Source of the DNA: Mycobacteroides immunogenum
GTDB lineage: Bacteria > Actinomycetota > Actinomycetes > Mycobacteriales > Mycobacteriaceae
Assembly (NCBI RefSeq): GCF_001605725.1
Contig: NZ_CP011530.1
Location: forward strand, 2,480,001-2,544,000
Direction: 5' to 3'
Length of the DNA stretch: 64,000 nt
Positions 5,352 to 9,929 of the stretch are shown here, in pieces. The position numbers and the translations under genes were made by a program. Positions within the stretch are counted from its first letter, which is position 1. Each line of letters opens with the position of its first letter. Under the pieces are notes generated by a model. That model did no database searches. It was not told where the DNA came from and saw only the letters and a program-made list of their open reading frames with translations.

Positions 5352-5388
5352 CGGCTTGCGAAACGCCAACGGGTGAAGGGGTTTTACG

Positions 5389-5823
5389 ATTCTCAGCGTT
5401 CTGAAGCGGGCTTGGATCCCGGTGGTGATGGTCCTCGTCCTGGTCATCGCGGGCTTCGCGGTCTGGCGGATTCGTGGCATCTTCGGCTCGCATCAGCTGC
5501 CCACCTACGCCGGCAGCATGACCGACGACAAAAACAACTCCAAGCCCAAGCACGTGCTCTACGAAATCTTCGGCCCTCCCGGCACCATTGCCGACATCAA
5601 CTACATCGACAAGGAAGGTGAACCGCATCAGATCAATGGTGCGGTCCTGCCCTGGTCGATCGAGATCATTACGACCGCGCCGTCGATGACGGGCAACATC
5701 CTGGCCCAGACCCGCAACGCCGACGGGCTGGGTTGCCGTATCACGGCCAACGATGAGAAAAAAGATGAAAGGTATACCAACGAGGTGAGCGCCTACGTCT
5801 ACTGCTTTGTGAAGTCCGCATGA
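5389..5823 (+). CDS. mmpS: MmpS-family accessory protein, first copy
   Basis: 144 residues from the proposed ATT start at 5389. One transmembrane helix (about residues 8-26) is followed by WRIRGIFGS and an extracytoplasmic MmpS domain with EIFGPPGTIADINYID and the C-terminal YCFVKSA typical of MmpS4/MmpS5. MmpS proteins work with the co-encoded MmpL transporter. After the in-frame stop at 5374 the first ATG/GTG/TTG is the GTG at 5422, which would remove the basic N-terminus (LSVLKRAWIP). ATT 5389 sits 7 nt after GAAGGGG and aligns with the second mmpS copy. The stop overlaps the mmpL start (ATGA). Confidence 0.88.
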   Translation: MLSVLKRAWIPVVMVLVLVIAGFAVWRIRGIFGSHQLPTYAGSMTDDKNNSKPKHVLYEIFGPPGTIADINYIDKEGEPHQINGAVLPWSIEIITTAPSMTGNILAQTRNADGLGCRITANDEKKDERYTNEVSAYVYCFVKSA

Positions 5824-8774: not shown

Positions 8775-9500
8775 CTTCCTCCGGCGTCCAGCTGGCGTCT
8801 GCTGATTTACCGTCGGAAAACGGGTACGGGACCGGCGGTGGGCTCAAAGTGTTTGCTGGTTACCTAGCTGTCGAATGCGCGCGCCTGTCTCTATGGGCCC
8901 TGCGTAGACACGCGCGGCTATTCGTGACGAACGACACGCCCGGCGCGAAAATTGGCCGCCGGTCACGTTTCGCTCGACGCCGCCCGCACCGTCCATGGCT
9001 ACTCCGCGCGTCGCGGTGGGACCCGATCGTCACCCCCGGAATTAGCGGCCGCAAACACTGGGTAGGTCCATTAGCTGGTGTGATTCTCGGACCAGTCACC
9101 AATGTTGATGTGCAAGCTGGTGCTTTCGTTACATGCAGGAAAAGAAGCGGGGAATACATCTGTGTCACCGGTTGTTGACATCTGCTTGTAGCTAACTAGG
9201 CTATTGCGAGTGCTCAGGGGAGCGAACTGGCAAGTTGTGAGTCATGACACATGTACAGTTCCCTGACAAACGTATGTAGTATCCCTTACGAATTACTGAG
9301 AAATCGGCATGATCGGAGCCTTGTGGGATGAACCGGCGATGTGAATGGACACCCCGAACGCCTGCAGACTCCGCAAAAACAACACGGTGCCGTACTGGCC
9401 GGTAACAATTTGCGCGCGAATAGCGCCCATGCGTAGCCGTAAGCGGTGAGCAGTATCGAGTTATTGGCCCCCGGGCCACACGGGTGAAGGGGATTGGACG
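8775..9500. other. 726-bp intergenic region between the two mmpS-mmpL pairs
   Basis: No convincing coding sequence. It holds a promoter candidate at 9175-9202 and the conserved ribosome-binding segment at 9480-9492. I see no copy of the TGCGTTA half-site found near the repressor, so this pair may not answer to the same TetR. No clear terminator was found after the first mmpL. Confidence 0.5.
9175..9202 (+). promoter_or_regulatory. candidate promoter of the second mmpS-mmpL pair
   Basis: A consensus TTGACA (9175-9180), a 16-bp spacer and TAGGCT (9197-9202) lie about 300 nt before the second mmpS. This is the best -35 box in the gap and would leave a long leader. Confidence 0.4.
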
Positions 9501-9929
9501 ATTTTAAAGGTCTTGTCGCGGGCATGGATCCCGCTCGTCGTTGTGCTGGTGGTCGCGGCCGCCGCATTCGGCGTCTATCGGCTCCACGGGGTGTTCGGTT
9601 CGACCAACATCAATCAGGCGATCGGCATCAAGGATGACTCCAAGAACATCATCCCCAAGGACATCGTCTACGAGATCTTTGGCCCCGCGGGGACAAAGGG
9701 TGAGGTGAACTATCTGGACGATAGGGCCCAGCCGCAGCGTGCGGTCTTTACCACGCTGCCGTGGAAGCTGACCATCACGACGACCATGACTTCTGTCTTC
9801 GCCAATGTCGTCGCGATGGGGGATAGCGACGAAATCGGCTGCCGCATTCTGTCCAACGGTGAAGTCAAGGACGAACAAAACGCGTCCAACCACAACGCCC
9901 AAGTCTTCTGCATGGTGAAATCTGCATGA
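9501..9929 (+). CDS. mmpS: MmpS-family accessory protein, second copy
   Basis: 142 residues from the proposed ATT at 9501. It has the same build as the first copy: a basic N-terminus (LKVLSRAWIP), one membrane helix, RLHGVFGS, EIFGPAGTKGEVNYLD and the tail CMVKSA. The only canonical start is TTG 9513, which has no well-spaced ribosome-binding site and trims the N-terminus. ATT 9501 lies 8 nt after GAAGGGG, and the distance from ATT to the conserved Trp codon is eight codons in both copies. The stop overlaps the following mmpL start (ATGA), so the two are co-translated. Confidence 0.87.
   Translation: MLKVLSRAWIPLVVVLVVAAAAFGVYRLHGVFGSTNINQAIGIKDDSKNIIPKDIVYEIFGPAGTKGEVNYLDDRAQPQRAVFTTLPWKLTITTTMTSVFANVVAMGDSDEIGCRILSNGEVKDEQNASNHNAQVFCMVKSA

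Follow-up and report, generated by a model that had tools for sequence, protein, structure and literature searches.

Our comparison of mmpS genes within and beyond a 64,000-nucleotide window of the Mycobacteroides immunogenum genome (positions 2,480,001 to 2,544,000 of contig NZ_CP011530.1; "the window" below means this whole stretch) indicates that ATT is very probably the true start codon of both mmpS genes in the window. This reading is built on the reading frame, on the conservation of the codon in relatives and on the Shine-Dalgarno sequence that precedes it. A large subfamily of mmpS genes in the genus has retained the ATT, which is therefore no defect of this particular strain. The window contains two tandem mmpS-mmpL pairs (PF05423 followed by PF03176) next to a divergent TetR gene, with the following features:

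5369..5381, + strand: 13-bp segment ACGGGTGAAGGGG of copy 1, including the Shine-Dalgarno sequence GAAGGGG (5375-5381), with the ATT 7 nucleotides on
5374..5376, + strand: in-frame stop TGA upstream of mmpS copy 1, within the 13-bp segment
5389..5391, + strand: putative ATT start codon of mmpS copy 1, from frame, conservation and Shine-Dalgarno score
5389..5823, + strand: mmpS copy 1 counted from the ATT, 144 amino acids, PF05423
5820..8774, + strand: mmpL copy 1, 984 amino acids, PF03176; the first base of its ATG lies within the end of mmpS, whose stop it overlaps (ATGA)
9480..9492, + strand: 13-bp segment ACGGGTGAAGGGG of copy 2, with the Shine-Dalgarno sequence GAAGGGG (9486-9492) and the ATT 8 nucleotides on
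9501..9503, + strand: putative ATT start codon of mmpS copy 2, from frame, orthologs and Shine-Dalgarno score
9501..9929, + strand: mmpS copy 2 counted from the ATT, 142 amino acids, PF05423
9926..12916, + strand: mmpL copy 2, 996 amino acids, PF03176; its ATG overlaps the mmpS stop
4399..5103, - strand: TetR-family regulator, divergent, adjoining copy 1 (profile match)

The two mmpS loci and their shared 13-base segment

An earlier note on this DNA, made from the letters alone, had pointed to the two ATT codons, and its description of the loci holds. The 13 bases are identical ahead of both genes (5369-5381 and 9480-9492), an ATT follows 7 or 8 nucleotides later at 5389 or 9501, and in both copies eight codons lead from the ATT to a conserved Trp, the frames reading ILSVLKRAWIP (copy 1) and ILKVLSRAWIP (copy 2). 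In copy 1, as had been claimed, no ATG, GTG or TTG separates the TGA at 5374 from the ATT, the only in-frame codons there being AGG, GGT, TTT and ACG; the first such codon after the ATT is GTG 5422, which is codon 11 after the ATT and lies beyond the Trp. The in-frame stop of copy 2 lies far upstream (9447), again with no ATG, GTG or TTG between it and the ATT, and a TTG (9513) stands four codons downstream of the ATT. Both proteins match the PF05423 profile, with 187.3 and 165.3 bits at a curated cut-off of 21.

The 13-base segment occurs four times in the whole 5.57-Mb genome, and three of the four occurrences precede an mmpS gene that bears ATT; its presence ahead of both mmpS genes of the window is more than chance. 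The third of these genes encodes a protein 98% identical to that of copy 1, and the fourth occurrence (516759) falls within an unrelated gene of the opposite strand. From the 28 PF05423 matches of the genome we read the 19 strongest. The start column, i.e. the position aligned with the ATT, holds ATT in five of these genes (the two of the window, the third gene behind the 13-mer and two more at 4.73 and 5.36 Mb), GTG in L012 and L022 and ATG in L010; L022 is very divergent and its alignment, hence the GTG in the column, is unsure. One and the same genome thus holds ATT, GTG or ATG at the same place in its mmpS paralogs. The gene at 4.73 Mb, L004 (G000:C1:4727708-4728136), has GAGGAGG and then an ATT that all 7 related genomes read retain (orthologs L267-L273). 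In L004 and its orthologs TTG-ATG follows four and five codons past the ATT, a possible pick of a gene finder.

Codons in the start column of relatives

Copy 1, L047 and L004 served as protein queries for relatives, to which records such as those of Mycobacteroides franklinii were added, and rows were drawn from the matches listed by those searches and set on the conserved Trp. The 303 rows obtained represent 292 distinct mmpS genes, from 193 Mycobacterium genomes plus six rows present in separate records only; L032 and L078 (the same genes as L006 and L005), 13 repeats and L290 (with a cut flank, the same gene as L114) had been removed before the 303. Orthologs of copy 2 and loci newly met in a survey of 121 genomes of the order stand apart from the 292. 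In that survey the matches listed came from ten genomes of this genus, the own genome included, and one genome of another family. A loose degenerate pattern run over 297 genomes was discarded, as it gave mostly chance matches, matched a reversed control too and yielded no usable count.

Among the 292 genes, the start column holds ATT in 148, ATC in 29, ATG in 17, GTG in 14, TTG in 2 and other codons in 82; as the queries were ATT-type genes, the share of ATT here is not to be equated with its share among all mmpS genes or its frequency across the genus. The earlier note had proposed asking relatives whether the ATT is conserved, and these 148 rows answer that it is, as does copy 2, with ATT in 7 of 7 orthologs from the other genomes read. 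The ATC rows include L163, L164, L166, L169, L170, L172, L176, L179, L185 and L195, and an in-frame ATG lies five codons upstream in L042, L163 and L164. Since ATC was a very poor start in a Mycobacterium smegmatis screen that is taken up below, the ATC genes may start elsewhere or be weaker.

Shine-Dalgarno pairing and conservation of the ATT

Shine-Dalgarno pairing was scored crudely, as runs of pairs with G-U allowed against an assumed 16S tail sequence, and the scores are relative only. At the ATT the median score is -11.1 over the 148 genes, and both window copies have exactly this value, whereas the median at ATG, GTG or TTG in the column is -7.3 (33 genes). The ATT rows thus have the stronger pairing, as if it compensated for a weak start codon. 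No ATG, GTG or TTG occurs from the upstream in-frame stop to the ATT in 104 of the 148 ATT genes, and 20 of the 104, copy 1 among them, have none until beyond the Trp either; three of the 20 (L033, L326 and L330) are without CTG as well.

The codon in the column does not follow the Ile codon usage of the genes that carry it. An Ile triplet in the column, combined with a good Shine-Dalgarno sequence at the right distance, was found in 164 genes, where it is ATT in 138, ATC in 25 and ATA in 1; inside these same genes ATT is a minor Ile codon (ATT 223, ATC 1239, ATA 89), and the difference has a Fisher p of 2e-76 for rows that are not independent. Because the rows are related, codon changes were also counted on one tree: over the same 149 rows the start column changed 8 times and the Ile codon after the Trp 33 times. 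Three more Ile columns, assigned like all those other than the one after the Trp by ungapped index, changed more often than the start column when both were counted over one set of rows (13 vs 8, 9 vs 2 and 13 vs 4). Downstream of the ATT, codons 2-8 are conserved in the manner of amino acids, with second positions mostly fixed and third positions freer (68 rows selected for ATT).

In a sister clade, made up of 24 rows between L011 and L156, a GTG (16 rows) or ATG (4 rows) lies five codons earlier, mostly behind GAAAGG-like bases, and the homologous column holds 13 different codons. This clade is a natural control for the conservation of the ATT. Its upstream region consists of GAAAGG-like bases followed by GTG-AAGGGG-like bases, in which the GTG equivalent to that of the 13-mer is the likely start. 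The Shine-Dalgarno sequence of the window genes seems to be the same DNA as this start region, in another role.

Points against an ATT start and alternative explanations

Several observations weigh against the ATT. In L034 the start column itself holds ATG; in other rows an ATG lies two codons earlier (L035, L036, L328, L329, L332 and L333), immediately before an ATT (L219) or further upstream (L050, L075, L076 and L338), and a group with long upstream open frames and a varying column probably starts upstream. None of ATT, ATC, ATA, ATG, GTG and TTG stands in the column in 28 of the 205 genes that score well for a Shine-Dalgarno sequence at the right place, and the Ile column of index 59 had fewer changes than the start column (2 vs 4, 51 rows). 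In copy 2 the pairing score is equal at the ATT and at the codon preceding it (both -11.1), and all 7 orthologs retain the TTG four codons downstream, so that the start of copy 2 rests on spacing and relatives. In M. tuberculosis, Ribo-RET data are reported to give an enrichment of ATT at start positions of no more than two-fold (PMC9094748).

Two other candidate codons were rejected. The codon before the ATT is ACG, GCG, GAG, CCG, CAG, TCG and more among relatives, and is hence not kept; CTG 5401 is replaced by CTC in L033 and by TTA in L326, and CTG was hardly functional in the M. smegmatis screen (PMC4633059).

The alternative that survives best, although we consider it quite improbable, is that the true start is the first canonical codon downstream (GTG 5422 and TTG 9513 in the window, and in many relatives a canonical codon three or four codons past the ATT) and that the ATT is untranslated or a chance triplet. 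Of the 104 ATT genes that have no start upstream, 76 do have their first such codon three or four codons past the ATT, the conserved TTG of copy 2 is at codon 4, and some pairing is available to both window candidates (-6.7 at GTG 5422 and -6.1 at TTG 9513). However, when the ATT is compared with the next canonical codon downstream, it has the better score in 140 of the 148 genes, with a tie in 6, and 20 of the 104 genes have no canonical codon until beyond the Trp; copy 1 is one of the 20 and would lose its eleven first residues including KRAWIP. The amino-acid-like conservation of codons 2-8 and the far better retention of the ATT than of the neighbouring Ile codon likewise speak for translation from the ATT.

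Related pumps are known from M. abscessus, and gene order suggests that the window genes correspond to some of them. In that species MAB_2300-2301 and MAB_1135c-1134c are under MAB_2299c and MAB_2302-2303 under MAB_2885, and these regulated pumps are described as acting on clofazimine, bedaquiline and tedizolid (PMC12136459). A further alternative, which we hold to be highly improbable, is that the conservation of the ATT with its flanks reflects the DNA site of a regulator and not a start codon. A divergent TetR gene adjoins copy 1, and in M. abscessus regulators of this kind bind the DNA ahead of these pumps (PMC12136459), but the conservation near the ATT resembles a Shine-Dalgarno sequence, a variable spacer and codons, although no search for palindromes was run. 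Moreover, MAB_2299c is reported, from earlier work cited there, not to bind upstream of MAB_2302, and the binding probe for MAB_2885 covers about 321-519 bp upstream (PMC12136459); if these data apply to the window's genes, as gene order would suggest, the shared 13-mer is not the operator.

Scarcely credible is a start at the GTG within the 13-mer (ACGG-GTG-AAGGGG) with the mmpS frame reached by slippage: the 13-mer does match the sequence at which the sister clade starts, with the GTG there in frame behind GAAAGG-like bases, but this GTG lies 16 and 17 nucleotides before the ATT in the two copies and thus in two different frames, the frame from it in copy 2 hits a TAA after seven codons, and many ATT relatives have no GTG at this position.

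Protein N-terminus and probable coupling to mmpL

With the ATT as start codon, the 30S subunit would be held by the Shine-Dalgarno sequence GAAGGGG and formylmethionyl-tRNA (fMet-tRNA) would start at the AUU 7-8 nucleotides on. Residue 1 would presumably be Met, and a short basic N-terminus (MLSVLKRAW or MLKVLSRAW) would be kept ahead of the single membrane helix. The earlier note had stated that MmpS5 begins with the same spacing, and rightly so: residues 2-142 of PDB 8zkp_F align with residues 2-144 of copy 1 counted from the ATT, the chain reads IGTLKRAW from residue 2, and the solved MmpS5 begins at the ATT position, which supports a start there. MmpS5 and MmpS4 (PDB 8zkp and 9syj) resemble copy 1 as sequence relatives and as partners of an MmpL. 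They and their kin also differ from the ATT genes, in that L130, a relative reading MIGVLKRAW, has ATG in the start column and the MmpS4 chain (PDB 9syj_D) begins about two residues past the ATT position. The ATG of L130 is at the same time a further sign that this column is the place of the start. For the prediction that gene finders truncate both proteins we obtained indirect signs, namely the offset of this MmpS4 chain and a Pfam model of the family whose match starts at residue 5 when either protein is read from its ATT.

In both pairs the ATG of mmpL and the stop of mmpS overlap as ATGA, and neither ATG has a Shine-Dalgarno sequence by the score used. The overlap is general: among the 148 ATT genes, the TGA of mmpS is joined in this way to an ATG or GTG in 145 (ATGA in 105, GTGA in 40), the remaining three having CTGA. 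Given this overlap and the lack of a Shine-Dalgarno sequence for mmpL itself, ribosomes that terminate on mmpS are likely to re-start at mmpL, and MmpL is probably made by the ribosomes that finish MmpS. The idea that an ATT start keeps MmpS low relative to MmpL becomes doubtful in view of this arrangement and of the solved MmpS-MmpL complex, which is 3:3 (PMC12501195). Instead, the AUU would determine how much of the entire pump is made, and not the MmpS:MmpL ratio.

Discussion

Initiation at ATT has a precedent in mycobacteria. In an M. smegmatis selection with a Shine-Dalgarno sequence and a random codon, the leadered reads comprised ATG 20.5%, GTG 22.2%, TTG 28.7%, ATT 9.8%, ATC 0.2% and CTG 0.03%, and ATT is described as able to "robustly initiate" behind a Shine-Dalgarno sequence (PMC4633059). 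The earlier view of ATT as a strongly limiting start is weakened by this screen, in which ATT is moderate and not crippled. The order of the screen is that of the natural pattern, with ATT first and ATC second among the non-canonical codons, so that a Shine-Dalgarno-dependent AUU start with fMet is the simplest reading of the mmpS genes. The reporters share with mmpS that ATT initiates behind a Shine-Dalgarno sequence in a mycobacterium, where CTG does not and ATC hardly does; unlike mmpS they form a synthetic library, and the word "mmpS" is absent from the main text of that paper (PMC4633059).

A second precedent lies within the window itself:

32905..33519, + strand: infC, encoding initiation factor 3 (IF3), with an ATC start behind GGGAGG

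Its frame has a stop eight codons upstream of the ATC, and the NCBIfam infC model aligns 4-168 to 4-168 counted from the ATC. The gene is an in-window precedent for a non-canonical start. The infC start is ATT in E. coli and ATC in Streptomyces (PMC5472188). Like mmpS, infC combines a non-canonical AUH start with a strong Shine-Dalgarno sequence and is readily overlooked by the usual start prediction; it differs as a single gene with self-feedback, whereas mmpS is a paralogous family of membrane proteins, mostly with AUU and with no evident feedback loop.

A regulatory parallel is offered by sigR of Streptomyces, whose GTC start is repressed by IF3 and whose rare start codon is kept in 32 of 34 species, as reported in PMC5472188. 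In actinobacteria, sigR and mmpS each head an operon of two genes joined by ATGA, with a very strong Shine-Dalgarno sequence and a rare start kept across species; the systems differ in that control by IF3 has been demonstrated for sigR (PMC5472188) and that its partner gene rsrA has its own ribosome-binding site, while mmpL has none by the score used. By analogy with infC and sigR, control of mmpS by IF3 is possible. A more far-reaching extension, which we regard as rather unlikely, would be an AUU regulon in which the exporter operons of the subfamily are read through IF3 and infC, with its ATC in the same window, is part of the circuit. Shifts of the IF3:ribosome ratio with growth or stress would then change pump numbers together, on top of the transcriptional repressors.

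Rare AUH starts are of a known kind, but a genus-wide paralogous family using one appears to be new; exact-word searches of the open-licence literature found no report of ATT starts in mmpS. The reporter study of 2015 demonstrated initiation at ATT in a mycobacterium; mmpS is a natural family that apparently uses ATT across the genus. Since many relatives keep the ATT, the N-terminal ends of these proteins have probably been drawn wrongly, and initiation may be under an unusual control. The mmpS family is tied to drug efflux and siderophore export, and annotated N-termini, expression constructs and the limits set for upstream regions may therefore be wrong. A translational layer of pump control may have been overlooked, and the use of AUU starts becomes testable in many paralogs, some of which carry ATG or GTG at the same place.
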